Shown here: positions 44,882 through 59,117 of the stretch, one piece after another
Layout of the letters: each line of letters opens with the position of its first letter
How positions within the stretch are numbered: the stretch's first letter is position 1
NCBI RefSeq assembly: GCF_000423485.1
Contig: NZ_AUIB01000001.1
Coordinates: 310,001-374,000 of the forward strand
Direction of reading: 5' to 3'
Length of the DNA stretch: 64,000 bases
Source of the DNA: Propionimicrobium lymphophilum DSM 4903
GTDB lineage: Bacteria; Actinomycetota; Actinomycetes; Propionibacteriales; Propionibacteriaceae
The notes under the pieces: model-generated
The model's input: only the letters and a program-made list of their open reading frames with translations
Database searches by the model: none
What the model was told of the DNA's origin: nothing
Translations under genes and position numbers: made by a program

Positions 44882-44928
44882 AGACAAAAGGGTGAGCCCG
44901 GTCGGGCTCACCCTTATCGTTTGTCTAG
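44882..44928. terminator. Terminator after metF (shared with pduQ)
   Basis: AAGGGTGAGCCCG pairs with CGGGCTCACCCTT around a 2-base loop (44888-44915), extended by CAGACAAA / TTTGTCT. Lies at the convergent ends of metF and pduQ. Confidence 0.88.
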
Positions 44929-46022
44929 AGAGCGCGCAGAATGATCTGGCGCAGGTCTTCCTCGGTTGGCTTAACCGGGTTCGTCTGCGTGCAACGATCG
45001 ACCATGGCGCTGGCGGTCATCTCGTCGAGCTTCTTACGGCACTCGTCGGAATCGACACCGGCCAGGTGCAGACTGTCGGGAATCTGCAACTTCTCATTCA
45101 TCCTGCGGATGTGCTGGACGAACATGCGCACCGCAGATGGGCCGTTAGAGTCGGGCGAAACCATCCTGCCTAGGCGGGCATAACGGCTCATGGCCTGCGG
45201 GTCCTGACTGTTGTACTCGATGACGTGCGGCAGCAGGATAGCGTTCAGCCGCCCGTGTGCCACGTGGAAGTGGCCGCCCAGCGCGTGCGCCAGGCTGTGC
45301 GTGATGCCTAGCCCCGCGTTCTCGAAGGAGGAAGCTGCAAGGGAAGAGGCGCTGTGCATGTGCTTACGCGCGTCCATGTCGTTGCCATCGACGAAGCACT
45401 CATGCAGATTCTCAAAAACCAGCGAGACGGCCTTCTCGGCGAGCGCGTCGGTGAAGTCGTTGGCGTCGGTAGAAACGTAAGCCTCTGTGGCGTGGGTCAG
45501 CACATCCATGCCGGAATCTGCGGTGGTTTTCGACGGGCATGAGCGCACGGCCTCGGGGTCCAGGATGGCGATGCGGGCATACATCTTTTCCGACAGCAAC
45601 GGAATCTTTGTTTCGTTAGCCTCGTCGGTGATGACCGCGTAAGAAGTCACCTCGGAGCCCGAGCCGCTGGTGGTCGGAATGACAACGATTCCGCCCGGTG
45701 CACCACGTCCGTCTTCACCAGCGATCAAGTGAACCGCCTTAGCGGTATCGATTGCAGAACCGCCGCCGTAAGCCAGCACGATTTCCGGACCAAACTGCAG
45801 GTATTCGGCGACGCCCTGCGCCACCAAATCGACAGTCGGGTTCGGCTCAACCTTGTCGAAAACCTTCACGTCGTCGAGGCGCGCGACGATCTCCTTGAAA
45901 TGGTCTGTGGTGGCTAAGAAGCCGTCGGTGACGACCAGTACTTTGGCGCCGGCAAATTCGTCCAAAACGTCTAGGCTGTCATCGCCCATATGGACTTTGG
46001 TAGGGATCTGGAAATTAGGCAT
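44925..46022 (-). CDS. pduQ: Iron-containing alcohol dehydrogenase (PduQ-like 1-propanol / 1,3-propanediol dehydrogenase)
   Basis: 365 residues, family III alcohol dehydrogenase. NAD-binding YGGGSAIDTAK (about residue 85), VVIPTTSGSGSEVT, and iron ligands in DVLTHATEAYVS and HSLAHALGGHFHVAHG. In pdu systems PduQ regenerates NAD+ by reducing propionaldehyde to propanol. ATG 46022 has CGGAGGAG 5 bases upstream; the gene overlaps the regulator's end by 8 bases, so it is the last gene of the minus-strand pduU-pduV-regulator-pduQ unit. Confidence 0.88.
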   Translation of the reverse strand: MPNFQIPTKVHMGDDSLDVLDEFAGAKVLVVTDGFLATTDHFKEIVARLDDVKVFDKVEPNPTVDLVAQGVAEYLQFGPEIVLAYGGGSAIDTAKAVHLIAGEDGRGAPGGIVVIPTTSGSGSEVTSYAVITDEANETKIPLLSEKMYARIAILDPEAVRSCPSKTTADSGMDVLTHATEAYVSTDANDFTDALAEKAVSLVFENLHECFVDGNDMDARKHMHSASSLAASSFENAGLGITHSLAHALGGHFHVAHGRLNAILLPHVIEYNSQDPQAMSRYARLGRMVSPDSNGPSAVRMFVQHIRRMNEKLQIPDSLHLAGVDSDECRKKLDEMTASAMVDRCTQTNPVKPTEEDLRQIILRAL

Positions 46023-47364
46023 TATTCTCCTCCGAATACTGCTGACGATATTCACCCGGAGTTACTCCGACGTGTTTCTTAAATACTCTGGAAAAGTAGT
46101 TTTCTGGCTGGAACTTGAGCGCACTAGCGATGCGAGAGATCGGTTTATCGGTATGCGCGAGTATCATCTTGGCCTTTTCTAGGCGCTTCGCTGTGACGTA
46201 TTGAATGAACGTGCTGCCCGTGTGGTTTCTGAAGGTTCTAGAGAAGTGCGAGTGTGAACAGTTCAGGTATTCCGCGCCGTCCTCGACGGTCAGAAAAGCG
46301 GTCGGATCCTTCTCTATCTCGTTCAACAGTGTGTTGACCGTGCGCTCTTGCACCTTCAGCGTGGGTTCCATCAGGTTGTGCAATGCGATGAGTAGGTTCT
46401 CGCAGTACCTGAAGGAATCGTAACGGTTCATCTCGCGCTTGGTGCGCATCCTGTGCTGAATGACCATCTGCGAAATATCGCGTCCAGTGCTCACGGAGTC
46501 GCTGCTCGCGATGCCGATCAGCACATCCTCAAAGCGTGCTATGTCGGTTGTTTTCATTTTCATGATCCAACTCGGCAGGGTGGCATCGAGGAATTGTTCG
46601 AGCACCTGCATGTTCGCGCCCAGATCGCGGCGAAGGACGTTTCCGGTTATCAGGTACGGGTCGAGGATGGAATCGAGCGCATCGTTTTTTTGCGTGATCG
46701 GGCGTAGCGGAAGCGCCTTATGGGTTAGCCTGCCCGCAAGCAGCGGAGCGAACCTGTCTTTTCTCTCCACGTCAGGCACGGAGTTGAGGCGTCCGTAGAT
46801 TGGGCTAGGAGCCAGGATAGTGAGCTTCTTGCCGTTGTTTCCGATCTTTTCGTTAACCATCTTGATAATGGCATCGGCGCTGCGATGAATGGTCTCTAGA
46901 TTGACGGTGTTGACGTCACGAATCAGATCTTCAGTCTCATCCGGAATAGCGAACTGGCCTTTGTTAGGCAAAATTTCCTTCGGCATCCGCTCGTTTCGCA
47001 TCAGCACTTGACCGGCGAGAACCGCTCCGATGAATCTTTCGTCCGAGACGATGGGCACCGCAAAGTCGACTAATCCGGCGTGGCACTTGTAAACAACCGG
47101 GCGGCCGTCCAGTGCGCCCTGCAACCCGCCGTGTGCGTCACAACTCATACAGCGCTTACGCACCCACGGGTCTCTACGCAGCAACTGGCAGAGCGCGGAG
47201 AAGCCCGAAGCATCGGTGATGGAACGGCCCATGGAGTCAACGGTGATCATTCCCAGGCCGGTCTCCGCAGCGAATTCGTCTTGAATTTTTTGCAGCTTCT
47301 CGATGTCGATTACGTCGCGGAGGCTCAGATTGCCGATGCCCGAAAGCTTAATTAGCTCTGCCAC
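46015..47364 (-). CDS. pocR: PocR-domain AraC-family transcriptional regulator
   Basis: 449 residues. The N-terminal PocR sensory domain (about 15-175) carries a cysteine set (CQLLRRDPWVRKRCMSCDAH and YKCHAGLVDFAVP). The C-terminal AraC/XylS DNA-binding domain (about 345-445) has two helix-turn-helix motifs, ending with the family's NYFSRVFKKHVGVTPGEYR. PocR controls pdu and cob genes in response to propanediol in enterobacteria. It is embedded in the pdu locus, overlapping pduV by 13 bases, so it probably activates both divergent pdu arms. Confidence 0.9.
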   Translation of the reverse strand: MAELIKLSGIGNLSLRDVIDIEKLQKIQDEFAAETGLGMITVDSMGRSITDASGFSALCQLLRRDPWVRKRCMSCDAHGGLQGALDGRPVVYKCHAGLVDFAVPIVSDERFIGAVLAGQVLMRNERMPKEILPNKGQFAIPDETEDLIRDVNTVNLETIHRSADAIIKMVNEKIGNNGKKLTILAPSPIYGRLNSVPDVERKDRFAPLLAGRLTHKALPLRPITQKNDALDSILDPYLITGNVLRRDLGANMQVLEQFLDATLPSWIMKMKTTDIARFEDVLIGIASSDSVSTGRDISQMVIQHRMRTKREMNRYDSFRYCENLLIALHNLMEPTLKVQERTVNTLLNEIEKDPTAFLTVEDGAEYLNCSHSHFSRTFRNHTGSTFIQYVTAKRLEKAKMILAHTDKPISRIASALKFQPENYFSRVFKKHVGVTPGEYRQQYSEENNA

Positions 47365-47786
47365 AGCACCTCCCGCAGCTCGTCGAGGCCTCTGCCTGTG
47401 ACGGCGTCAGTGACGAATATTGGGCTAGCCCCACCTTGGGCGAGGGTCTGTTTTGCATTTTCGATCTGCTCTTCGGTTGCGTTGTCTGCTTTCGTGACTA
47501 CGCCCCAAACCGGGGGAGCGAACGTTCCTGCGATGCCTGGAGGCATCCGGGTCTCGGGCGCAGTCGGGTCCACGAGCAACAAAACGATGCCCACGCTGTT
47601 GGCGCTTACCTGAAGAGCCGACCAAAATCTACCGTGATCGAAGTACTCCCCAGGAGTGTCAACAATGTTGCCAAGAGCCTCGATCGCCTGCGTTTTAGCG
47701 TACTTAATTGAGGCGTCATTAAGCCTCTGACAGAGCGTCGTTTTGCCAGCCGTGATACTCCCAATGAGCAGAATTGTATCCGACAT
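47352..47786 (-). CDS. pduV: EutP/PduV-family small GTPase-like protein
   Basis: 144 residues with P-loop GSITAGKTT (about residues 8-16), TPGEYFDH in place of a switch II motif and TKADN as the G4 motif. EutP/PduV proteins accompany diol- and ethanolamine-utilising microcompartments; PduV has been proposed to link compartments to filaments, EutP is reported as an acetate kinase. It lies between pduU and the regulator; start overlaps the pduU stop by one base. Confidence 0.85.
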   Translation of the reverse strand: MSDTILLIGSITAGKTTLCQRLNDASIKYAKTQAIEALGNIVDTPGEYFDHGRFWSALQVSANSVGIVLLLVDPTAPETRMPPGIAGTFAPPVWGVVTKADNATEEQIENAKQTLAQGGASPIFVTDAVTGRGLDELREVLWQS

Positions 47787-48142
47787 TACGTTCTGGTTAT
47801 TTGGGTGGGGGTGAATCCGAGCACATTTTCGAGGGTGTCCACTACGCTGCGTAGCGACGACTCCACGCTTGCCAGGACGCCCGTGATGACCACCGCGCCG
47901 GAAAACCTGTCCACGAAAGCCAGTTCAACTGCAGACGCCTTAGTGGCAATGTCTGCCGCGATAATTGCGCCTTCACCAGGGGTAATAGTGAAGATTCCGA
48001 TGGCCCCATTGTGATCACTAGTTAGGCCAATCTTCTGGTATAGACTCTCGTCGGGGTTAGCGATGACGTGCGCAAGGGTGACCTGTTTGCCCGGCACAAA
48101 TTCCTGGATTATTCGCTGCTTTGCGAAGACTTCGTCACTCAT
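47786..48142 (-). CDS. pduU: BMC shell protein of the PduU/EutS type
   Basis: 118 residues, circularly permuted BMC domain. The N-terminal [21 protein letters not shown] forms the extra beta-barrel segment typical of EutS/PduU, followed by [22 protein letters not shown] and [18 protein letters not shown]. It forms hexamers that may cap or bridge the shell facets. First gene of the minus-strand arm; GGAG lies 6 bases before the ATG. Confidence 0.92.
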
Positions 48143-48208: not shown

Positions 48209-48281
48209 TTTGTACAAAGGTGCCTGTTTTGTTTCATCAGAGTTGGCGTATTGTCAAATACAAGTTGCCTGTAATTGCAGG
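48209..48281. promoter_or_regulatory. Divergent control region between pduU and pduA
   Basis: The 162-base divergent spacer holds: a perfect palindrome TTTGTACAAA (48209-48218); TGCCTGT repeated at 48221-48227 and 48266-48272, 45 bases apart; and the palindrome-like CCTGTAATTGCAGG (48268-48281) just before the pduA ribosome-binding site. Such spaced direct repeats suit an AraC-type (PocR) dimer. Assignment is inferred. Confidence 0.45.
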
Positions 48282-48304
48282 TGCCCACAGACAAAGGAGT
48301 TCTG

Positions 48305-48583
48305 ATGCAAGAAGCACTCGGCATGGTTGAAACCAAAGGTTTCGTCGGGGCCGTAGAAGCTGCAGACGCAATGGTCAAAGCAGCAAATGTGACGCTTTGC
48401 GGCAGCGAAAAAATCGGCGCCGGCTTCGTCACAGTTACTGTCAGAGGCGATGTAGGCGCAGTTAAGGCAGCTGTTGACGCAGGTGCCGCATCCGCGTCTC
48501 GAGTTGGCGAACTTGTAAGTCAGCACGTGATCGCTCGTCCGCACGGCGATGTAGAGACCATCCTTCCAAAGAACGCGGAGTAA
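48305..48583 (+). CDS. pduA: BMC-H hexameric shell protein PduA
   Basis: 92 residues, canonical BMC domain: [40 protein letters not shown] and [11 protein letters not shown]. It forms the main shell facets with a central pore for the diol. Very similar to the PduJ copy at 55280. ATG 48305 has AAGGAG 6 bases upstream; an upstream in-frame start would add ten non-conserved residues. Confidence 0.95.
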
Positions 48584-48586
48584 AAA

Positions 48587-49366
48587 ATGTCCAATGAATT
48601 AGTTGACCAGGTAATGAAGGAAGTAATGAAGCAGATGGGTAGCGAGGAAAAGCCCGCAAGCTCTTCATTTAAGGTAAATCCCGGTATCACCGAGTTTGTC
48701 GGTACCGCAGAGGGCGACACTATCGGCCTCGTTATTGCAAACCTGGACGCTCAGGTAGCTAAGCTGTTCGGGCTCGACAAGAAGTACCGCTCAATCGGTA
48801 TTCTCGGTGCACGCACCGGCGCCGGCCCACAGATTTTCGCAGCCGATGAGGCAGTCAAAGCCACCAACACTGAGATCGTAAAGATCGAGCTTCCCCGAGA
48901 CACCAAGGGCGGGGCAGGCCACGGTTCGTTGGTGGTTTTTGCGGCTGAGGATGTTTCCGACGCCCGCCGCGCCGTAGAGGTAGCTCTCGAAGACATCGAC
49001 CGCACCTTCGGTGATGTCTGGGGCAACGACGCGGGCCACCTGGAATTCCAGTACACAGCCCGCGCCTCGCATGCGTTGAACATGGCATTCGGTGCCCCGA
49101 TCGGCAAGAGCTTCGGTATCACCGTTGGCGCCCCCGCCGCCATCGGCGTCGTGCTGGCTGATACCGCAGTTAAGGCATCGACCATCGACGTCGTGTCGCT
49201 CGCCACGCCGACCAACGGCCAGAGCTTCTCCAACGAGGTCACCGCTACCTTCAGCGGCGATTCCGGAGCTGTTCGCCAGGCGATTATCGCCGCTCGCGAG
49301 GTCGGCATCAAGCTGCTCGGCGCGCTCGGTGATACCCCGACTTCGACCACCACTCCGTACATTTAA
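48587..49366 (+). CDS. pduB: BMC-T trimeric shell protein PduB
   Basis: 259 residues, two fused BMC domains (about 35-130 and 145-250), the PduB/EutL-type tandem protein forming trimers with gated pores. The N-terminal MSNELVDQVMKEVMKQMG is a short amphipathic helix; in pdu systems the PduB N-terminus links shell and enzyme core. It starts 3 bases after pduA. Confidence 0.93.
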   Translation: MSNELVDQVMKEVMKQMGSEEKPASSSFKVNPGITEFVGTAEGDTIGLVIANLDAQVAKLFGLDKKYRSIGILGARTGAGPQIFAADEAVKATNTEIVKIELPRDTKGGAGHGSLVVFAAEDVSDARRAVEVALEDIDRTFGDVWGNDAGHLEFQYTARASHALNMAFGAPIGKSFGITVGAPAAIGVVLADTAVKASTIDVVSLATPTNGQSFSNEVTATFSGDSGAVRQAIIAAREVGIKLLGALGDTPTSTTTPYI

Positions 49367-49378
49367 AGAGGACGCTAA

Positions 49379-51040
49379 ATGAGATCAAAGAGGTTTGAGG
49401 CTCTCGATGCGCGTCCCGTCAACCAGGACGGGTTCGTCACCGAGTGGCCAGAAGTTGGTCTAATCGCGATTGATTCGCCTAGCGACCCTAAGCCGTCGAT
49501 CAAGATCGAAAACGGTGAGGTCGTCGAAATGGACGGTAAGCGAGTCGACGAGTTTGACATGCTCGATTCGTTCATCGCTCGTTACGGCATCAACCTGGAA
49601 AATGCCGAAAAGGCGATGTCCGTTGATTCCGTCGACATGGCTCGGATGCTTTGTGACATCAACGTTCCGCGTGCAGACGTTATCGCTTTAACTACTGCCA
49701 TGACCCCGGCCAAGCTGACCGAGGTCATCAGCAACATGAGCGTGCTGGAAATGATGATGGGCGTCACGAAGATGCGCGCCCGCAAGAAGCCGGCTAACCA
49801 GTGCCACGTGACTAACGTCGCCGACAACCCGGTGCAGATTGCGGCAGATGCCGCAGAGGCTGCACTTCGTGGCTTCGCTGAGATGGAGACCACGATGGGT
49901 GTCGCCCGTTACGCTCCGTTCAACGCGATTTCGTTGATGGTTGGCGCTCAGACTGGCCGTCCGGGCATTCTCACGCAGTGCTCCTCTGAGGAAGCTACTG
50001 AGCTTCAGCTCGGTATGCGCAGCCTAACGGCTTACGCTGAGACCGTTTCGGTGTACGGCACTGAGGACGTCTTCATGGACGGCGACGACACTCCATGGTC
50101 GAAGGCTTTCCTAGCTTCCTGCTACGCCTCTCGCGGCATGAAGATGCGTTTCACTTCGGGCACCGGTTCTGAGGTTCAGATGGGCTTTGCCGAGGGCAAG
50201 TCGATGCTTTACCTTGAGTCCCGCTGCTTGTTCGTCACGCGTGCTGCCGGCTCGCAGGGCATCCAGAACGGTTCCGTTTCTTGCATTGGTGTTCCTGCTG
50301 CTGTTCCAGGCGGTATCCGTGCGGTTCTCGGCGAGAACCTGATTGCCATGATGCTCGACCTGGAATGCGCATCCAGTAACGACCAGACGTTCACGCACTC
50401 CGATCTGCGCCGTTCGGCTCGTACTCTGATGCAGTTCGTTCCGGGTACCGACTTCATCTGCTCCGGTTACTCTTCAACCCCGAACTACGACAACATGTTC
50501 GCTGGTTCAAACTGGGATGCCGAAGACTTCGACGACTGGAATATCATCCAGCGTGACCTTCGTGTCGACGGTGGCTTGAACCCTGTCGAAGAAGATGACG
50601 TGGTTGCGGCACGTAACAAGGCGGCCCGTGCTCTGCAGGCAACCTTCCGTGGCCTGGGCCTGCCTGCCATCACCGATGAAGAGGTTGAGGCAGCCACCTA
50701 CGCTAACGGCTCGAAGGATATGCCGAAGCGTGATGTCGTTGAGGACCTTAAGGCTTGCGCCGAAGTCCTCGAGCGTGGCCTTACCGGCCTGGACGTCTGC
50801 AAGGCTCTCTACGAGGGTGGCTTCGACGACGTCGCAAAGGCGATCTTCGATCTCAACGTCCAGCGTTGCGCGGGCGACTACCTGCACACCTCGGCGATCT
50901 TCGACGAGAACTGGGGCGTTGACTCTGCAGTTAACAACCCGAACAGCTACGAGGGCCCGATGACCGGCTACCAGATCAGTGAAGAGCGCTGGGAGCAGAT
51001 CAAGACCATCCGCAACGCGGTAAGCCCGGAAAGCATCTGA
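49379..51040 (+). CDS. pduC: Diol/glycerol dehydratase large subunit PduC
   Basis: 553-residue TIM-barrel subunit of adenosylcobalamin-dependent propanediol (or glycerol) dehydratase, which turns 1,2-propanediol into propionaldehyde. N-terminal KRFEALDARPVNQDGFV, central RYAPFNAISLMVGAQTGRPG, TGSGSEVQMGFAEGKSMLYLE-like TGTGSEVQMGFAEGK and SCIGVPAAVPGG are strongly conserved. Glycerol versus propanediol preference cannot be told from motifs alone. Spaced 12 bases from pduB. Confidence 0.97.
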   Translation: MRSKRFEALDARPVNQDGFVTEWPEVGLIAIDSPSDPKPSIKIENGEVVEMDGKRVDEFDMLDSFIARYGINLENAEKAMSVDSVDMARMLCDINVPRADVIALTTAMTPAKLTEVISNMSVLEMMMGVTKMRARKKPANQCHVTNVADNPVQIAADAAEAALRGFAEMETTMGVARYAPFNAISLMVGAQTGRPGILTQCSSEEATELQLGMRSLTAYAETVSVYGTEDVFMDGDDTPWSKAFLASCYASRGMKMRFTSGTGSEVQMGFAEGKSMLYLESRCLFVTRAAGSQGIQNGSVSCIGVPAAVPGGIRAVLGENLIAMMLDLECASSNDQTFTHSDLRRSARTLMQFVPGTDFICSGYSSTPNYDNMFAGSNWDAEDFDDWNIIQRDLRVDGGLNPVEEDDVVAARNKAARALQATFRGLGLPAITDEEVEAATYANGSKDMPKRDVVEDLKACAEVLERGLTGLDVCKALYEGGFDDVAKAIFDLNVQRCAGDYLHTSAIFDENWGVDSAVNNPNSYEGPMTGYQISEERWEQIKTIRNAVSPESI

Positions 51041-51047
51041 GGTAATC

Positions 51048-51728
51048 ATGGACCAATCAACGCTTAAAAGCCTTATCGAAAAGGTAGTTTCTGAGGTTGT
51101 CGCCGGCCAGGCGAGCAAGCACGCACCGGCACCCAAGTCTGAGAAGCCTGAGTCCAAGGCGATCAGCTACTCAGATCCCGGCGATATCGAGGTTGTTGAG
51201 ACCGGCGTAGCCGAGCGCGGTACCGACCCGAAGGAAGTCGTAATCGGTCTTTCTCCGGCATTCGGCACTGAGCTGACTAGCACGATCATCGGCCTGAAGC
51301 ACGGCGAGGTTCTTCGCCAGATCTGCGCAGGTATCGAGGAAGAGGGCCTGAACTACAGGTTCATCAAGGTGTACCGCACCGCAGACGTCGCTTTCATCGG
51401 TCTGGACGCAGCAAAGCTGTCCGGATCCGGAATCGGCATTGGTTTGCAGTCCCGCGGCACATCGATCATCCACCAGCGCGACCTGGCACCGCTGAGCAAC
51501 CTCGAGCTGTTCAGCCAGGCACCGTTGATGGACCTTGAGACCTTCCGCGCGCTAGGCCGTAACGCCGCGCAGTACGCCAAGGGTCTGTCGCCCAACCCGG
51601 TACCGATTCGTAACGACCAGATGGCTCGTCCGAAGTACCAGGCTGTTGCGGCTCTGCTGCACAACAAGGAAACCCGACTGACTGACACGCACAAGAAGGC
51701 GCAAGCAGTCACCATTAAGTACAAGTGA
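51048..51728 (+). CDS. pduD: Diol dehydratase medium subunit PduD
   Basis: 226 residues. The N-terminal MDQSTLKSLIEKVVSEVVAG is an amphipathic encapsulation helix followed by a charged linker, then the conserved core (VVIGLSPAFGTELT, GIEEEGLNYRFIKVYRT, SGSGIGIGLQSRGT). It binds the cobalamin together with PduC. The next gene overlaps at 51725-51728 only if the upstream GTG is used. Confidence 0.96.
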   Translation: MDQSTLKSLIEKVVSEVVAGQASKHAPAPKSEKPESKAISYSDPGDIEVVETGVAERGTDPKEVVIGLSPAFGTELTSTIIGLKHGEVLRQICAGIEEEGLNYRFIKVYRTADVAFIGLDAAKLSGSGIGIGLQSRGTSIIHQRDLAPLSNLELFSQAPLMDLETFRALGRNAAQYAKGLSPNPVPIRNDQMARPKYQAVAALLHNKETRLTDTHKKAQAVTIKYK

Positions 51729-51736
51729 GGCAAAGC

Positions 51737-52276
51737 ATGAACCAAGAAGAACTGATCCGTCAGATCATGTCTGAGGTCATGAAAGACCTCGGAAGTAACA
51801 ACGTCGAATTCACCAAGAATTCTCCGGCACCTTCAACTTCTTCCGCTCCAGTATCTTCAGGCACGAAGTTGACTGTGGCAGACTATCCGCTGGCGCAGAA
51901 GCACCCGGATAGGGTTAAGTCCAACACCGGCAAGGTGCTGTCTGATCTGACCTTCGAGAAGGTTAAGAGCGGAGAGTTGAAGGCGGACGACTTCAAGATT
52001 TCGGCTGACACCCTTGAGCTGCAGGCCGAGGTCGCTGAAGCGGCTGGACGTCCGACGCTGGCGCGTAACCTTCGTCGCGCTGCAGAGCTGATCGCGATTC
52101 CCGACGATCGTCTTCTGGAGATCTACGACGCTCTACGTCCTTACCGAAGCAGCAAGCAGGAACTGCTTGACATCGCAGACGAGTTGCAGAACGTACACAA
52201 GGCCGCCATCTCGGCAGACTTCGTGCGCGAGGCAGCTGACGTTTACGAGAAGCGCGACCGTCTGCGTCGCGACTAA
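51737..52276 (+). CDS. pduE: Diol dehydratase small subunit PduE
   Basis: 179 residues. N-terminal MNQEELIRQIMSEVMKDLG encapsulation-type helix, a Ser/Pro-rich linker, then DYPLAQKHPDRV, LTFEKVKSGEL and the C-terminal helices ending in RPYRSSKQELLDIADEL. ATG 51737 is preferred over GTG 51725 because GAGG lies 7 bases upstream and it gives the family N-terminus. Confidence 0.95.
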   Translation: MNQEELIRQIMSEVMKDLGSNNVEFTKNSPAPSTSSAPVSSGTKLTVADYPLAQKHPDRVKSNTGKVLSDLTFEKVKSGELKADDFKISADTLELQAEVAEAAGRPTLARNLRRAAELIAIPDDRLLEIYDALRPYRSSKQELLDIADELQNVHKAAISADFVREAADVYEKRDRLRRD

Positions 52277-52285
52277 GGAGTCGAA

Positions 52286-54097
52286 ATGTCTGTAGTGGCA
52301 GGAATAGATATCGGCAACGCAACCACCGAGGTTGCGCTGGCGCGTCGTCGCGGCCCCGATCTTGAATTCCTCGCGTCCTCTACGGTCAGAACGACTGGCA
52401 TGAAGGGCACCAAAGACAACATCAAGGGTGTCTTTGGTGGTCTTAAAGATGCCCTCGGAAAGGCAGAGCTTAACCTCGACGACGTCGATCTGGTGCGGAT
52501 CAACGAAGCCGCACCAGTTATCGGCGACGTCGCGATGGAGACGATCACTGAAACGATCATCACCGAATCGACGATGATCGGTCACAACCCGTCCACACCG
52601 GGCGGGTTGGGCATCGGTGTCGGCACCACGATAAGCATCGACGATCTGGCCTCTGCTAACCAGGGGCCATACATCGTCGTTATTGACCGCAGCCACGATT
52701 TCGCGGATGCCGCGCAAACAATCAATAACGCTTCGGCGAAGGTTGCCGGCGCGATTTGCGAACTCGATGACGGTGTTCTGGTGCACAACCGGCTCGATGA
52801 GAAGATCCCGATCGTTGACGAGGTTGCCTACATCGATAAGGTGCCTTTAGGGATGTTGGCCGCGGTGGAGGTGGCCGATGTTGGTCGAATCGTGGAGACG
52901 CTGTCCAATCCGTACGGCATCGCCACTCTCTTCGAGCTCAGTTCCGAAGACACCAAGCAGGTAGTACCGTTGGCCCGCTCGCTGGTTGGCAACCGCTCCG
53001 CAGTTGTCATCAAGACCCCGAAGGGAGACGTCAAGGAACGCAGGATTCCTGCGGGCAAGTTGACGTTTCACGGGCCTACCAGGAAGAACACCAGTTTCGT
53101 CGAAGTTGATGTCGATAACGGTGCAGAGAAGATCATGGCGGCCCTCGGTGAGGTGACTGATGTCACCGACATCACGGGCGAACCGGGCACCAACGTCGGT
53201 GGAATGATGGAACAGGTTCGAGTATCGATGGGCACGCTCACCGGTCAGAACCCGAAGGACATCAAGATTACCGATCTGTTGGCGATTGATACCCGCACTC
53301 CTAAGCAGGTTGCGGGCGGTATCGCTAACGAGTTTTCGATGGAAGCTGCCGTCGGTATAGCCGTCATGGTGCACGCCGATCGGCTGCAGATGCAGATGAT
53401 TGCCGACGAGATTTCTGCTGAAATAGGCATTCCCGTCGAGGTGGGTGGCGTTGAGGCAGACATGGCCATTCAGGGTGCATTGACAACTCCTGGTGTTGCT
53501 GCCCCGATCGCGGTTTTGGATATGGGTGCGGGCTCCACAGATGCGTCTGTAATGCATGCGGATGGTTCGATCGTTTCGACCCACCTTGCCGGTGCAGGCA
53601 ATATGGTGACGTTGATGATAAAGACCGAACTCGGCCTTTCTGATACGCACATTGCCGAGGACATCAAGCGCTATCCTCTGGCCAAGGTGGAAACGATTTT
53701 TTCCATCAGGCATGAGGACGGTACGGTCCAGTTCTTCAACGACCCGCTACCGCCGGAGACGTTCGCTAGGGTCGTAATCATGAAGCCCGATGGTTTGGTT
53801 CCTCTGGACATCGATCTGCCTGTCGAGACTATCGGGCAGGTGAGAATCCGCGCTAAGCAGCAGGTGTTCGTCACAAACGCGGTGCGTGCTTTGCGCAAGG
53901 TCAGCCCGACAGAGAACGTGCGAGACATCGATTTCGTTGTTTTAGTTGGTGGTTCCGCTCTCGACTTCGAGATTCCCCAGCTCGTAACTCATGCGCTGGC
54001 CGACTATCGAGTCGTCGCAGGACGCGCAAACATCCGGGGCAGCGAGGGCCCACGAAACGCGGTAGCAACCGGCCTAGCCCTGAGTTGGGAGGGCTAA
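52286..54097 (+). CDS. pduG: Diol dehydratase reactivase large subunit PduG
   Basis: 603 residues. Exchanges damaged cobalamin for fresh coenzyme in an ATP-dependent, chaperone-like way. Actin/Hsp70-like ATPase motifs: VAGIDIGNATTEVALA at the N-terminus, VLDMGAGSTDASVM near residue 410 and LVGGSALDFEIP near the C-terminus. AAGGAG lies 7 bases before ATG. Its partner pduH starts directly after the stop. Confidence 0.96.
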   Translation: MSVVAGIDIGNATTEVALARRRGPDLEFLASSTVRTTGMKGTKDNIKGVFGGLKDALGKAELNLDDVDLVRINEAAPVIGDVAMETITETIITESTMIGHNPSTPGGLGIGVGTTISIDDLASANQGPYIVVIDRSHDFADAAQTINNASAKVAGAICELDDGVLVHNRLDEKIPIVDEVAYIDKVPLGMLAAVEVADVGRIVETLSNPYGIATLFELSSEDTKQVVPLARSLVGNRSAVVIKTPKGDVKERRIPAGKLTFHGPTRKNTSFVEVDVDNGAEKIMAALGEVTDVTDITGEPGTNVGGMMEQVRVSMGTLTGQNPKDIKITDLLAIDTRTPKQVAGGIANEFSMEAAVGIAVMVHADRLQMQMIADEISAEIGIPVEVGGVEADMAIQGALTTPGVAAPIAVLDMGAGSTDASVMHADGSIVSTHLAGAGNMVTLMIKTELGLSDTHIAEDIKRYPLAKVETIFSIRHEDGTVQFFNDPLPPETFARVVIMKPDGLVPLDIDLPVETIGQVRIRAKQQVFVTNAVRALRKVSPTENVRDIDFVVLVGGSALDFEIPQLVTHALADYRVVAGRANIRGSEGPRNAVATGLALSWEG

Positions 54098-54466
54098 ATG
54101 CGAAACGTTCCGGCCCAGGTGCCAACAATCAAACTCCACGCGAACTCCAAGATCACCGACGATCAGTTGACTCAGGTGTTGCTTGGAGTTGAAGAGGAGA
54201 GCGTACCCATTGAGGTCGTTCGTGAAGACGAGCTCAACCCGCTCGAACTGGCCCACAACGCAGCGATTGCTTCGAGTTTGGGTATCGGCATCGGTATATC
54301 GCTGGACTACGTAGTAGTGACGACGGAGAAGTTGCCCACTGAGCGGCCATACATGGCCACCTGGTTGGGTGATAGCTGGATCAACGACCGCCACGTGGGG
54401 GAAAACGCCGCACGGTTGGTCAAAAGGACGCCGCTACTGCGGCTAGCTTTGGAAAGGAGTGCTTAA
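54098..54466 (+). CDS. pduH: Diol dehydratase reactivase small subunit PduH
   Basis: 122 residues, related in fold to the medium dehydratase subunit: GVEEESVPIEVV, AHNAAIASSLGIGIGI and the C-terminal LVKRTPLL. Forms a heterotetramer with PduG. Starts on the base after the pduG stop and overlaps the next gene by one base (TAATG). Confidence 0.93.
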   Translation: MRNVPAQVPTIKLHANSKITDDQLTQVLLGVEEESVPIEVVREDELNPLELAHNAAIASSLGIGIGISLDYVVVTTEKLPTERPYMATWLGDSWINDRHVGENAARLVKRTPLLRLALERSA

Positions 54467-55224
54467 TGCAGGCGCTAGGAACCATCGAAACGCTTGGGAT
54501 GGTCGCAGCTATCGCAGCAGCCGATGCAGCGGCTAAAGCCGCAAACGTTGAGCTGATCGGCTACGAGCTGACTCGCGGCGGCGGTTATGTCAACGTCAAG
54601 GTGCAGGGCGCGGTCGACGCGGTCCAGTCTTCTATGGACGCAGCCAAGATGGCAGCCGAAAGGATCAGCAAAGTGATCAGCTTGTCGGTCATCGCCAGGC
54701 CAAGCTCTCAGATGGAAAAGATTATTTTCAGTGCTGACACAGTCGGTGCTGGAGCTCCTGAGCCACAGAAGGCTCAGGAGACAAAGGAAACTAAGGCTCC
54801 TCAGCAGGCGAAGGTCGCAGCTCCCAAGGCTCCGGCTGTAAAGGTCTCGGCCACGAAGGTCGCAGCTCCCAAGGCTCCGGCTGTAAAGGTCTCGGCCACG
54901 AAGGTCGCAGCTCCCAAGGCTCCGGCTGCAAAGGCCTCGACCACGAAGGCAGTTGCCACCAAGACTGAGAGCATAACGACTTCGGCCGCTAAGCCTGAGC
55001 TACAAAAAGCTCCGGCTGTGAAAGCCGAGGCTCCCAAAACGGAAAAGCTAAAGTCTGAATCGAAGCCGAATAGCCAGCCGGCAAAGTCCGAGTCTGGCGA
55101 GAAGGCTACGACGAAGGCGAGCACTCAGCAGCCTAAGGCTGCTCCGGTGAAGAAAGAAACCGCGACCAGCAGGCCGGCGGCTAAGAATAATCACGCCACT
55201 CGCAAGGTGGCCGCTAAAAAATAG
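54466..55224 (+). CDS. pduK: BMC-H shell protein with long basic H1-like tail (PduK position)
   Basis: 252 residues, nearly three times a standard BMC-H. The first about 90 residues are a BMC domain (ALGTIETLGMVAAIAAADAA, VQGAVDAVQSSM, SLSVIARPSSQME). The remaining 160 residues are low-complexity Lys/Ala/Pro/Thr sequence with three near-identical 15-residue repeats of KVAAPKAP...KVSAT and further PKAP-like units, highly basic, resembling histone H1 tails or bacterial nucleic-acid-binding tails. The position between pduH and pduJ is that of PduK, whose normal extension is shorter. The tail may project into the lumen or cytosol to bind cargo, nucleic acid or polyphosphate; this is inference. 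Confidence 0.9.
   Translation: MQALGTIETLGMVAAIAAADAAAKAANVELIGYELTRGGGYVNVKVQGAVDAVQSSMDAAKMAAERISKVISLSVIARPSSQMEKIIFSADTVGAGAPEPQKAQETKETKAPQQAKVAAPKAPAVKVSATKVAAPKAPAVKVSATKVAAPKAPAAKASTTKAVATKTESITTSAAKPELQKAPAVKAEAPKTEKLKSESKPNSQPAKSESGEKATTKASTQQPKAAPVKKETATSRPAAKNNHATRKVAAKK
54811..54945 (+). repeat. Three tandem 45-bp repeats within the PduK-like gene
   Basis: Units at 54811-54855, 54856-54900 and 54901-54945 each begin AAGGTCGCAGCTCCCAAGGC. The first two appear identical; the third has a few substitutions. Repeat number may vary between strains. Confidence 0.95.
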
Positions 55225-55279: not shown

Positions 55280-55558
55280 ATGAGCCAGGCACTAGGTCTA
55301 ATCGAGACCAAGGGATTCGTAGGTTCGATTGAAGCTGCTGACGCCATGGCCAAGGCCGCAAACGTCGAGCTGATCGGCAATGAGAAGATCGGTTCCGGTT
55401 TGGTGACCGTCATGGTACGCGGTGACGTCGGTGCTGTTAAGGCAGCTGTTGACGCAGGTGCTGCTGCAGCTAGCCGCGTTGGCGAGCTCGTCAGTCAGCA
55501 CGTCATCCCGCGCCCGCACGCGGACGTCGAGAAGATGCTGCCGCACCCGGCTAAGTAA
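55280..55558 (+). CDS. pduJ: BMC-H hexameric shell protein PduJ
   Basis: 92 residues, close paralogue of PduA ([47 protein letters not shown]). PduJ is usually the most abundant shell protein. The ribosome-binding site is the best in the operon (AGGAGG, 6 bases upstream), preceded by a 55-base spacer after the PduK-like gene, and a stable hairpin follows. Confidence 0.95.
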
Positions 55559-55602: not shown

Positions 55603-55649
55603 CGACATCCGAGTAATACAGGTAATTCGTGGAAGGAAGGAATGCTCTA

Positions 55650-56381
55650 ATGACCCAGGAACAGCTCGTCGGGTTAGTGCAGCAGATCGTTAAAGAGGTG
55701 CTCAACCACGAAAAATTATCTGACGTGCAGGCAGCACCGAGTGACAAGAAGATTCTCGTCTTGTTCTCCGGTGCGCTCATCGGCTTCGATGACGCGATTG
55801 AGTCTCTAAAACAGATCCGTGAAGTTGACATTGAAACCATTCAGACCGATTCCGCTCTGCGAATTCTCGATCAATCGAAGATCGAGCAGATTGGGCGAAA
55901 GGTCGACCCGAAGCACCTCGTTGAGACGCACGACGAGCTGGTCGTCGCAACTTTGACACTTAATCTGGCAAGCAAGGCCGCCCACGGCATCTGCGATTGC
56001 TTGGGCTCGAATTTGATATCTGACTTTTTGCTGGCAGGTAAGAAGGTGACCGCTGCCATCGATGGCGTTTGCCCAGACGGCGCAGAGAAGCGCAAGTGGT
56101 TCCCGAACATTCCTGCCGGTTACGCGGCGATGATGCGCAGGAATCTATCCACACTAAAAGACATCGGGGTGCAGACGGTTCGTGCAAAAAACCTTTGTAG
56201 AGCCTATAGCGCACCAAAGACGCAGGAGGCGCCGGAGGGTAAGCGCAAGCTGATAACTGCCGAGGTGGTAGAGGGGTTAGCGCCTGGAAGCGTCCTAGAG
56301 ATCGGCGAAAATGACATCGTCACCGATCTAGCCAAAGAAGTCGCTGCCGATGCGGGCATCGAACTGTTGAAAAGGAATTAG
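55650..56381 (+). CDS. Flavoprotein-like BMC protein at the PduL/PduM position
   Basis: 243 residues. The N-terminal MTQEQLVGLVQQIVKEVLNH is an encapsulation-type helix. Residues 30-140 resemble the flavoprotein (PF02441) fold: KILVLFSGALIGFDDAIESL and VVATLTLNLASKAAHGICDC, where the T-x-N-x-x-x-K-x-A-x-G-I-x-D pattern is typical of FMN-binding members. The C-terminal segment (KLITAEVVEGL to ELLKRN) recalls the short C-terminus of PduM. It occupies the place of pduL/pduM between pduJ and pduN. Function unknown; a lumenal flavoenzyme, perhaps for cobalamin reduction, is a hypothesis. ATG 55650 is preferred over GTG 55629. Confidence 0.75.
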   Translation: MTQEQLVGLVQQIVKEVLNHEKLSDVQAAPSDKKILVLFSGALIGFDDAIESLKQIREVDIETIQTDSALRILDQSKIEQIGRKVDPKHLVETHDELVVATLTLNLASKAAHGICDCLGSNLISDFLLAGKKVTAAIDGVCPDGAEKRKWFPNIPAGYAAMMRRNLSTLKDIGVQTVRAKNLCRAYSAPKTQEAPEGKRKLITAEVVEGLAPGSVLEIGENDIVTDLAKEVAADAGIELLKRN

Positions 56382-56383
56382 AG

Positions 56384-56653
56384 ATGTATCTAGCTAAGGT
56401 CGTTGGCAACGTCGTCTCGACTAGCAAGGACGAGCGGCTGGTCGGCTTCAAGCTGCTGCTAACCTGTCGGCTGGATGACCAAGAAAAGCCGGTGGACAAC
56501 CCGGAGGTATGCGTCGACACGGTTGGCGCCGGCACGGGTGAGGTCGTCATAGTGACGAAGGGCTCCAGCGCTAGGTTCGCCGCAGATCGCGAACACGCTC
56601 CGATCGACGCCACGATCGTCGGAATCGTCGATACCGTAGAAATGGACGACTGA
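56384..56653 (+). CDS. pduN: BMC-P pentameric vertex protein PduN (EutN/CcmL family)
   Basis: 89 residues. MYLAKVVGNVVSTSKDERLVG start, VDTVGAGTGEVVIVTKGSSAR and DATIVGIVDTVE are the family signature. Forms pentamers that close the vertices of the shell. Starts 2 bases after the flavoprotein-like gene and ends 2 bases before pduO. Confidence 0.95.
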   Translation: MYLAKVVGNVVSTSKDERLVGFKLLLTCRLDDQEKPVDNPEVCVDTVGAGTGEVVIVTKGSSARFAADREHAPIDATIVGIVDTVEMDD

Positions 56654-56655
56654 TC

Positions 56656-57702
56656 ATGCCAGCTATCTACACACGCACGGGGGACAAGGGCGGCACTGGC
56701 CTTTTCGGCGGTTCTAGAGTACCCAAGCAGAGCTTGCGAGTTGAGGCCTACGGCTGCGTAGATGAGGCCAACGCTTGGCTCGGCGAAGCTAAGGTGCTGT
56801 TACCAGCCGATGAGCGAGAGAAGCTTAACCACATTCAAAAAAGGCTGTTTGTTCTCGCAGCTGAACTGGCATCTGACGCGAAGGGCACCCAGATCCTCGC
56901 TAACAAAATCAGCGATGCCGACGTCGTTTATTTAGAGAATCTAATCGACGAGTGCCTAGAGATTACTGGCCCGCAAAAAAATTTCGTGATTCCCGGTCGC
57001 GACGAGCCTTCCGCAAAGTTGCACGTTGCCAGGACGGTTGTGCGCAGAGCGGAGCGACAAGTGCTTCGACTTGCAGAGCAAGAGAACGTTCGGCCCGAGG
57101 TAATCAAGTACTTGAATCGCTGTTCCGACGCGATCTATTCGTTGGCGAGACTCAGCGAGCATCGTTGGGACGTCGAAAGACTGACGAAGATGGTTCGTGG
57201 CGCCGTCGAGCGTGTGCTCGGCGTCAGCCTGGAAGAGTCCGCAAAGGTAAAGCCGGCAGAAAAGAAGCCGGAAGTTCCGCAGCACTTCGTAATGAACCTG
57301 GAGCTTGCCAACAAACTTGCCGAAGCCGCAAAGCAGAAGGCCGAGGCGATGCAGGTCCCGATCGTTTTCGCGGCGGTAGACCAGCACGGAAACCTGGTTT
57401 GCATGCAGGTCATGGAACGCACACTGTTGGCCAGCCACGATATCGCCATGAACAAGGCCTGGACCGCGTTGGCGTTCAAACAGACCACGCAAAACCTCGG
57501 CAAAGCAGCTGCGGGGCCTAACGGCGTGATGCCAGGTGTGGAGGCCGGGAACAAGGGCAGGGTAGTGCTCTTCGGAGGCGGCGCACCAATCTACTGCAAC
57601 GGAACCATCGTGGGTGCGATCGGCATCTCCGGCGGCACCGTCGAACAAGACGTAACAATCATGAACTCGGCATTAAAAAAGATATTGGGAGTAACAAAAT
57701 GA
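56656..57702 (+). CDS. pduO: PduO-type ATP:cob(I)alamin adenosyltransferase with C-terminal GlcG/HbpS domain
   Basis: 348 residues. N-terminal adenosyltransferase (about 1-190): YTRTGDKGGTGLFGGSRVPK at the start, then FVIPGRDEPSAKLHVARTVV and CSDAIYSLAR near the end, the ATP- and cobalamin-binding segments. C-terminal GlcG/DUF336 domain (about 210-348): MNKAWTALAF and GGGAPIYCNGTIVGAIGISGG. Salmonella PduO has the same two-domain form, with the C-terminal domain reported to bind heme. It regenerates adenosylcobalamin for PduCDE. Overlaps pduP by 4 bases. Confidence 0.95.
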   Translation: MPAIYTRTGDKGGTGLFGGSRVPKQSLRVEAYGCVDEANAWLGEAKVLLPADEREKLNHIQKRLFVLAAELASDAKGTQILANKISDADVVYLENLIDECLEITGPQKNFVIPGRDEPSAKLHVARTVVRRAERQVLRLAEQENVRPEVIKYLNRCSDAIYSLARLSEHRWDVERLTKMVRGAVERVLGVSLEESAKVKPAEKKPEVPQHFVMNLELANKLAEAAKQKAEAMQVPIVFAAVDQHGNLVCMQVMERTLLASHDIAMNKAWTALAFKQTTQNLGKAAAGPNGVMPGVEAGNKGRVVLFGGGAPIYCNGTIVGAIGISGGTVEQDVTIMNSALKKILGVTK

Positions 57703-59117
57703 GTATCGATCCTCAACTAATCGAGAAGACCATTCGCCAGGTGCTCTCCGAGCTTCCGGGCAACAAATTCGATAGTGAGCCAGAAAAGTCAAGTGATGTC
57801 GCCACCGGTGACGGCATCTTCGCCGACATGGACAGCGCAGTGAATGCTGCTCAGAAGGCCTGGAAGGAGTACATGGGCTGCTCTATGGCAGACCGTGAGC
57901 GCTTCGTGCAGGCCATCCGTGACACAATGAGCAAGCCGGAATCCATTGCCTACATGTCCGAGCAGGCGGTTGCTGAATCCGGCATGGGTAACGTCGAACA
58001 CAAGAAGATCAAGAATCGTATAGCCGCCACTCAGACTCCCGGCACTGAAGATCTGACCACCGAGGCTTGGTCCGGTGACGACGGCCTGACCACCGTCGAA
58101 TTTTCGCCGTTCGGCGTGATCGGCTCCATCACACCGACGACGAACCCCACCGAAACCATCACCTGCAACTCGATCGGCATGCTCGCCGCGGGCAACGCGG
58201 TCGTGTTCAGCCCGCACCCGCGTTCCAAGAACATCTCGCTGTGGCAGATCAGGGAGATTAACAAGGCTCTCGCAGCCGTTGGTGCTCCGAAGAACCTGGT
58301 TGTCACTGTCGCCGAGCCGTCCATCGACAACACCAACAAGATGATGGCCCACTCGGACGTCCGCATGCTCGTCGCCACCGGCGGCCCCGGCATCGTCCGC
58401 ACGGTTCTCTCCAGCGGCAAGAAGGCCATCGGTGCTGGCGCAGGTAACCCGCCGGTTGTCGTGGACGAAACCGCCGATCTCGATCTGGCCGCGAAGTCCA
58501 TCGTCGACGGCGCAAGCTTCGACAACAACCTGCCGTGCACCTCCGAGAAGGAATGCCTGGTTGTTGAGGACGTCGCAGATCTGCTCAAGTTCAAGATGAC
58601 CAGCAACGGCGCATACGAGCTGAGCGCCGATCAGATCTCCAAGCTTGAGAAGATCATCGTCAAGAACAACAAGGCTGCCACCGAGTGGGTGGGCAAGTCG
58701 GCTGAGAAGATTCTTGCTGAGGTTGGCGGGAAGGCTCCGGCTGGTACCAAGCTGCTGATCGCCGAGGTAGACAAGGACCACCCGTTTGCTCAGGTCGAGC
58801 TGATGATGCCGGTTCTGGCCATCATCCGCACTCCTGATGTGGATACCGCGATCGATTGGGCAGTTGATCTCGAGCACGGCAACCGTCACACGGCGATCAT
58901 GCATTCGAAGAACGTGAATTCGCTGACTAAGTTCGGCAAGCTGATCCAGACCACTATCTTCGTCAAGAACGGCCCGTCGTACGCTGGCATCGGCATCACT
59001 GGCGAGGGTTACCCGACCTTCACCATTGCAGGCCCCACTGGCGAGGGCCTGACGAGCGCTCGCTCTTTCGCTAGGAAGCGCCGCTGTGCCTTGGTTCAGG
59101 GCCTAAACGTTAGGTAA
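57699..59117 (+). CDS. pduP: CoA-acylating propionaldehyde dehydrogenase PduP
   Basis: 472 residues. Oxidises propionaldehyde to propionyl-CoA with NAD+. N-terminal MSIDPQLIEKTIRQVLSEL is the encapsulation helix (linker to residue 40), followed by the aldehyde dehydrogenase domain: GVIGSITPTTNPTETI, ATGGPGIV, GAGAGNPPVVVDE and catalytic Cys280 in FDNNLPCTSEK. Last gene of the plus-strand pdu arm, ending at a terminator. Confidence 0.96.
   Translation: MSIDPQLIEKTIRQVLSELPGNKFDSEPEKSSDVATGDGIFADMDSAVNAAQKAWKEYMGCSMADRERFVQAIRDTMSKPESIAYMSEQAVAESGMGNVEHKKIKNRIAATQTPGTEDLTTEAWSGDDGLTTVEFSPFGVIGSITPTTNPTETITCNSIGMLAAGNAVVFSPHPRSKNISLWQIREINKALAAVGAPKNLVVTVAEPSIDNTNKMMAHSDVRMLVATGGPGIVRTVLSSGKKAIGAGAGNPPVVVDETADLDLAAKSIVDGASFDNNLPCTSEKECLVVEDVADLLKFKMTSNGAYELSADQISKLEKIIVKNNKAATEWVGKSAEKILAEVGGKAPAGTKLLIAEVDKDHPFAQVELMMPVLAIIRTPDVDTAIDWAVDLEHGNRHTAIMHSKNVNSLTKFGKLIQTTIFVKNGPSYAGIGITGEGYPTFTIAGPTGEGLTSARSFARKRRCALVQGLNVR

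Follow-up and report, generated by a model that had tools for sequence, protein, structure and literature searches.

A stretch of 64,000 nucleotides from Propionimicrobium lymphophilum DSM 4903 (contig NZ_AUIB01000001.1, positions 310,001 to 374,000; hereafter the window) contains a propanediol-utilisation (pdu) microcompartment operon. One of its genes is a pduK whose product joins a complete BMC-H shell domain to a long, basic and predicted disordered tail resembling that of histone H1. The features of this gene, in coordinates of the window, are as follows.

54451..54466, + strand: ribosome-binding site GGAAAGGAG, and TAATG, in which pduH stops and pduK starts, from reading the sequence
54466..54741, + strand: BMC-H (PF00936) domain of the PduK ortholog, residues 1–92 (Pfam, AlphaFold2, Foldseek)
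54739..54747, + strand: T-V-G hinge, residues 92–94, where the tail begins (alignments)
54742..55221, + strand: disordered K/A/P/T tail, residues 93–252, net charge +22 (composition, AlphaFold2 confidence, lysine spacing)
54809..54949, + strand: 45-bp tandem repeat within the tail, 3.1 copies with 96% matches, whose 15-bp sub-period encodes Lys-ending pentads (Tandem Repeats Finder; residues 115–162)
55162..55221, + strand: basic C-terminal cap, the last 20 residues, net +6 (charge count; a basic end recurs in relatives)

The open reading frame (ORF) occupies exactly 54466–55224 on the forward strand, starts with ATG and encodes 252 residues. PF00936 is complete at residues 3–79 (profile positions 1–75 of 75; E-value 8.8e-22; 77.3 bits against a cut-off of 24.5) and is the sole Pfam family found in the protein at E ≤ 0.001. 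In the AlphaFold2 model, helices and strands lie within residues 2–87, with block means of 90–98 in the predicted local distance difference test (pLDDT) over residues 1–80, and the top Foldseek matches of the domain are solved BMC-H proteins, the HO shell (5v74) and PduA (4qif). An artefact of frame or annotation was considered and rejected: the frame is open, GGAAAGGAG sits 6 nt upstream of the ATG, and that ATG shares one base with the pduH stop. GC content at codon positions 1, 2 and 3 is 0.59, 0.57 and 0.61 in the tail versus 0.56–0.71, 0.40–0.46 and 0.65–0.76 in the neighbouring genes; the raised second position is expected from Ala, Pro and Thr codons, and the third is somewhat lower. 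There is no cysteine anywhere in the protein, and thus no Cys-rich (Fe-S/Zn-like) end motif of the kind found in PduK.

The first-pass annotation had described a BMC-H domain followed by about 160 residues of Lys/Ala/Pro/Thr repeats, and this description holds. Residues 93–252 comprise 25% Ala, 19% Lys, 11% Pro and 11% Thr, with 31 Lys, two Arg, 11 Glu, no Asp, and no Phe, Trp or Tyr; the isoelectric point (pI) is 10.3, and after residue 100 pLDDT lies near 50 (46–56) with no secondary structure, so that both checks it had proposed, of pI and of disorder, came out as it foresaw. Its picture of a strongly basic, disordered, H1-like tail stands for basicity, disorder and likeness to H1, and is too strong for charge density, which is moderate at net +0.138 per residue; the tail is nonetheless a disordered, K/A/P-rich, basic one of at least 100 residues, as expected of an H1-like tether. 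By textbook lengths its 160-residue chain would measure a few nm as a coil and up to ~58 nm stretched.

Residues 109–167 form a run of 59 acid-free residues with 12 Lys. Lysine recurs every five residues along the tail (17 lag-5 pairs versus 5.7 expected; p 0.0002, 5000 shuffles), in large part because of the 45-bp repeat array; past the array, in residues 163–252, the period is borderline (6 pairs versus 3.2, p 0.059) and the tail is still net +12 over 90 residues. Among 218 ORFs of the host genome (greedy calls over 264 kb with a 100-aa minimum, spurious ORFs included), no other has a 100-residue stretch as rich in lysine, or as rich in K/A/P/T/S/V, as this protein, which ranks eighth in net charge, below seven arginine-rich called ORFs. 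No Pfam family was found in the tail at E ≤ 1; being predicted disordered, it also lacks the nucleic-acid-binding-like fold of EutK-type C-termini. Searched against its own genome, it returned only the self-match at E ≤ 10, a result that leaves room for other H1-like tails there.

The operon reads pduA, pduB, pduC, pduD, pduE, pduG, pduH, pduK, pduJ (a BMC-H without tail), a gene for a flavoprotein-fold protein, pduN, pduO and pduP, with pduU, pduV, a pocR-like gene and an Fe-alcohol dehydrogenase gene on the divergent side. The ORF at 54466–55224 is identified by operon position and domain, not by function, as an actinobacterium's PduK ortholog, belonging to a microcompartment for propanediol utilisation: the gene sits in a pdu operon beside pduJ and after pduH, and its BMC-H product carries a long C-terminal extension (160 aa) behind a shared T-V-G hinge. 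Wherever pduH was found among the fetched loci (40 of 40, copies of the window excluded), a PduK-type BMC-H likewise lies beside it in the same locus. The order of K and J here is the reverse of that in Salmonella. No ParA family member occurs among the scanned ORFs between 42.9 and 63.5 kb, the part of the genome to which the ParA search was confined. The neighbouring features are:

54098..54466, + strand: pduH, dehydratase reactivase small subunit (PF02288, E 6.1e-25)
55280..55558, + strand: pduJ/pduA-type BMC-H without tail (PF00936, E 1.8e-31)
48275..54097, + strand: pduA-type BMC-H, pduB, pduC, pduD, pduE and pduG (PF00936; PduB TIGR04501; large, medium and small dehydratase subunits; PduG TIGR04491)
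55629..59117, + strand: flavoprotein-fold protein, pduN, pduO and pduP (PF02441; PF03319; PF01923 with PF03928; aldehyde dehydrogenase NF011927)
44925..48142, − strand: pduQ-like Fe-alcohol dehydrogenase, pocR-like regulator, pduV and pduU, divergent (PF00465, PF10114, PF10662, PF00936; EutS/PduU-type NF012012)

The flavoprotein-fold gene (55629–56381; PF02441, with a weak TIGR02536 match) stands between pduJ and pduN, the position at which Salmonella carries pduL and pduM; no PduL was found among the operon genes scanned.

In the host's bacterial family, 72 of 198 genomes had a match, and loci were fetched for most, not all, of the 72. They yielded 41 closed PduK sequences, the window's included; ORFs running off their contig (L019, L026) were dropped, three proteins that scored best to the J query (L045, L053, L056) were not counted as PduK, and L148, whose arginine-rich tail is of other make-up and possibly a frameshift, was excluded from all counts. 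Long variable tails are usual in PduK of this family (17–190 aa, median 100; 39–190 aa in 39 of the 41 and 17–18 aa in two), and their middle part is mostly acidic, with a median net charge of −4 and a range of −18 to +16, the maximum being that of the window protein. We therefore rejected the idea that a tail is unique to the window protein, long tails being a family trait. The first-pass annotation had called PduK extensions typically shorter; this is true of enteric bacteria (40–70 residues in Klebsiella PduK, EutK and CmcE; PMC12058022) and does not extend to the host's family.

A short basic end recurs in these tails. The last 20 residues have a median charge of +5 and are net positive in 36 of the 41, and many tails end in TTTRRKQS, RTSRTKK or similar. 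Among the relatives, 38 have a tail of 35 aa or more (window left aside; L011 and L014, with 17–18 aa, dropped); their last-20 charges sum to +161 versus −3.9 in shuffled tails (standard deviation (s.d.) 12.5; maximum 47 in 5000 shuffles); 35 of the 38 ends are positive and 21 are individually significant at p < 0.05. Since each tail was shuffled, the basic end reflects placement rather than composition; because the 38 sequences share ancestry, the excess does not tally independent events. The hinge is also shared: T92 and G94 are invariant across 14 aligned PduK-position proteins, and in 18 proteins across phyla G94 is invariant and T92 at least 90% conserved, T-V-G being widely common after the domain. 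As a separate observation, the three J-like proteins of the host's family (L045:1891–2523, L053 and L056) are other BMC-H proteins with a compact end, LRVADLRTLLRK...NKEALLAAFKRAY, that looks SAP-like by eye; Pfam SAP reached E 0.11 on one of the three tails, and no SAP identity is claimed. The L045 protein, which adjoins eutL- and eutJ-like genes (by eye), is perhaps EutK.

A contig scan with aligned domains gave 79 loci in which 47 BMC-H proteins were closed and had, at the match, a tail no shorter than 35 aa; 12 of them duplicate members of the family set, leaving 35 new ones, mostly from Firmicutes, with Halanaerobium, Synergistaceae, Fusobacteriaceae and Raoultella. In the 35, the last-20 charges sum to +131 versus −66 shuffled (s.d. 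15), and 28 are positive. A Cys4 motif with an RKKG-like core is present in 19 of the 35, and the remaining 16 still sum to +81 versus −33 (s.d. 10). Counted over long-tailed proteins, the Cys motif occurs in 22 of 50 and in none of the 12 that repeat the host's family. Tail ends in L070–L143 (mostly Firmicutes) share a recurring basic Cys4 core, CNxCxDPxCxRKKGxxRxxCIHY, which may be a nucleic-acid-binding knuckle instead of, or besides, an Fe-S site. Several tails of Lachnospiraceae and Oscillospiraceae end in KKAPAKRGGKRKQ or KGRKGGKRGSK, and one from Fusobacteriaceae (L126) is of different make-up, 124 aa with 31% Lys, IKE repeats, a Lys-rich end and net +10. Because T-V-G is common and basic ends recur, a plan of domain, hinge, variable leash and usually basic cap can be read from the sequences of long-tailed BMC-H proteins in several phyla.

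Taken whole, most tails are not basic: of 75, 50 carry a net negative charge, 21 a positive one and four none; that of the window protein and one other, from locus L158, top the ranking at +21 each, followed by +13 and +11. L158 encodes the PduK of an actinobacterium of another class, within a complete pdu operon; its whole tail is basic and includes two KPAA units (the AlgP/PhaF tetrad type), of which the window protein has none. It was the one long basic tail among 29 new loci read from a search of the phylum (52 of 396 genomes matched). In the class of genome G236 (66 genomes, 24 matched), the 35 BMC stretches of L187–L218 include no long single-domain tail besides the L158 gene. The search for BMC-H proteins with similar tails that the first-pass annotation had proposed thus returned one more whole-tail basic case; the charge of the long middle is not conserved, and that of the short end mostly is.

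The basic tails of the window and L158 probably arose independently, to judge from their operons. The PduG of L158 is 67.7% identical to that of the window, placing it 58th of 93 fetched loci (some genomes twice, and many compared over part of pduG), and the window's own family reaches 79.5%; independent gain is likelier because the L158 operon is not especially close. For the same reason a shared origin was not adopted, although the PduK tree, which has 94 columns and sets both proteins on long, unresolved branches, is too poorly resolved to exclude it.

What such a tail might do is suggested by work on Salmonella. Without PduK, Pdu compartments are well-formed but polar, and PduK restores their distribution; the authors propose that its flexible C-terminal extension, on a concave side facing outside, contacts other elements of the cell (PMC9132943). 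Without EutK, Eut compartments are polar, and the EutK tail has been called positively charged and potentially nucleotide-binding (PMC12487888). Pdu positioning is unaffected by McdAB, ParA and MinD (PMC12866334), and in reporting that PduK and EutK are needed for spreading, the authors call the mechanisms that position catabolic compartments undetermined (PMC12487888, PMC12866334). In other systems, granules are positioned on the nucleoid through the H1-like tails of AlgP, PhaF and PhaM, and granule positioning is lost when AlgP lacks its tail (PMC9239181, PMC13052382).

Combining these deletion phenotypes and H1-like precedents with the anatomy of the tail, we give about even chances to the proposal that the window PduK is a built-in tether to the nucleoid, or to polyanions in general. 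PduK would be a minor component mixed into the shell. Its tails, as has been suggested for Salmonella PduK, would emerge from the concave face, on the cytosolic side, and as many as six of them per hexamer would bind nucleoid DNA loosely and multivalently, through many weak contacts. Compartments would in this way be kept over the nucleoid even though exclusion pushes large particles poleward, and would be distributed throughout the cell and into both daughters with no need of a ParA-type ATPase. In the window protein the leash itself would have become basic and H1-like and would grip the nucleoid. Among the functions that the first-pass annotation had floated, tethering to the nucleoid is the best supported on our analysis, by the pduK and eutK deletion phenotypes and the PhaF/PhaM/AlgP precedent. 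A broader version is more speculative, and we would sooner bet against it than for it: that PduK-type shell proteins of many phyla are ATP-free nucleoid tethers with a variable outer leash and a nucleic-acid-binding basic cap (an R/K peptide, an AKRGGKRKQ-type end or a Cys4-RKKG knuckle), the leash having turned into an H1-like DNA-binding tail in the window species and in the actinobacterium of another class.

If true, tethering would explain why compartments become polar on pduK deletion, would bring microcompartments under the PhaF/AlgP strategy, and would offer engineers a tag with which to spread or anchor synthetic compartments. The resemblance of a PduK tail to a known class of nucleoid tethers makes the positioning question directly testable with a simple reagent; for other PduK proteins, the recurrence of the basic cap supplies a prediction.

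Several points weigh against these proposals. With 50 of the 75 tails net negative overall, the basic leash is not conserved, and a general role of PduK therefore cannot need one; L158, for its part, is a selected case, since the full-length window protein was the query that retrieved it. In the window protein the last 20 residues do not significantly exceed the remainder of the tail in basicity (p 0.097), because the entire tail is basic. A net-positive end is lacking in five of the 41 family sequences (L011, L013, L014, L015, L052) and in seven of the 35 from outside the family, which were called long-tailed BMC-H by domain and tail irrespective of operon type. In many Firmicutes the cap is the Cys4 module, and the enteric Cys-rich motif has been described as a possible Fe-S site (PMC12058022). 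The window protein, with a net +0.138 per residue and no KPAA, also falls short of AlgP, which has net +55 and 25 perfect KPAA repeats (PMC9239181, PMC13052382).

A rival account has a modest probability, well short of even: the leash is a flexible spacer or entropic bristle whose composition drifts by slippage of short repeats, so that its basic charge is incidental and only the short cap, or nothing beyond spacing, matters. Leash length (17–190 aa) and middle charge (−18 to +16) do vary widely among orthologs, and basic leashes (threshold +0.08 per residue; seven of 74 sequences) need six changes on the poorly resolved tree. The 45-bp array can itself grow by slippage, a further point against a tether; it also explains much of the lysine period, which outside the array is borderline. 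Incidental charge is harder to reconcile with the acid-free run of 59 residues and its 12 lysines, with the +12 that persists beyond the array, and with the equal net charge of a second, wholly basic tail in L158.

Alternatively, the basic end may bind protein, namely acidic patches on other shell hexamers or compartments, so that the tail staples or spaces shells without touching DNA. Cross-linking of Salmonella Pdu compartments, which joins residues near the PduK cap to PduA or PduJ (PMC12058022), speaks for this and against a tether; PduJ and PduA are abundant shell proteins (PMC9132943), and the BMC part of the window PduK has a pI of 5.2. Any long, flexible, Lys-bearing tail would, however, be expected to give such cross-links, and the shells that form without PduK are sound while their compartments cluster at the poles (PMC9132943), which disfavours a main role in stapling. 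We regard this account as rather unlikely.

It is more improbable still that the partner of the tail is a different polyanion, be it RNA, polyphosphate granules or the membrane's anionic inner face. Basic tails are not very selective among polyanions. Against this account, no annotated operon gene suggests polyphosphate or membrane, and aromatic residues are absent from the tail; in its favour, AlgP, of similar composition, associates with polyphosphate granules (PMC9239181). Recruitment of acidic cargo, which the first-pass annotation had also raised, is less likely, since the tail probably emerges on the cytosolic side, as has been suggested for the PduK of Salmonella (PMC9132943).

Two observations stand apart from this argument. 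The HU/IHF-type family PF00216 was not found in the host genome (given as 100% complete), whereas 23 of the 27 genomes in the relatives search (host counted) have a member; the search did not include Lsr2 or mIHF. Elsewhere in the window, 27062–31540 is an ORF of 1492 aa that contains three Rib-domain stretches and presumably encodes a surface protein.

Set beside known systems, the window PduK resembles those of Salmonella and Klebsiella in its single BMC domain, disordered C-terminal extension and pdu operon; the Klebsiella protein differs in belonging to the 40–70-aa extension class and in its Cys-rich, putative Fe-S end, where the window tail has 160 residues, is basic and is free of Cys (PMC12058022). 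EutK likewise joins a BMC-H domain to a positively charged C-terminal part, and its deletion leaves compartments polar (PMC12487888); the window tail, by contrast, matches no Pfam family. Positioning by McdAB, as for carboxysomes, is alike in that a protein-shelled organelle would be placed on the nucleoid, and differs in needing a ParA-type ATPase and an adaptor; neither was seen among the annotated neighbours, and neither is needed in the model proposed here. In the open-licence PMC papers searched, so far as their excerpts go, we met no microcompartment shell protein with an H1-like tail and no shared basic cap; a positively charged tail for EutK and an outward-facing one for PduK are already in print, and the H1-like shell-protein tail and the shared cap are apparently new. 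Close parallels are also AlgP and PhaF of Pseudomonas and PhaM of Cupriavidus, which combine an organelle-bound N-terminal part with a K/A/P-rich, H1-like tail that binds DNA and places granules (the AlgP repeat region has 154 residues; PMC9239181, PMC13052382). The window protein shares composition with them, and they sit on polyphosphate or polyhydroxyalkanoate (PHA) granules; in the window PduK the same strategy would be built into the shell protein itself.
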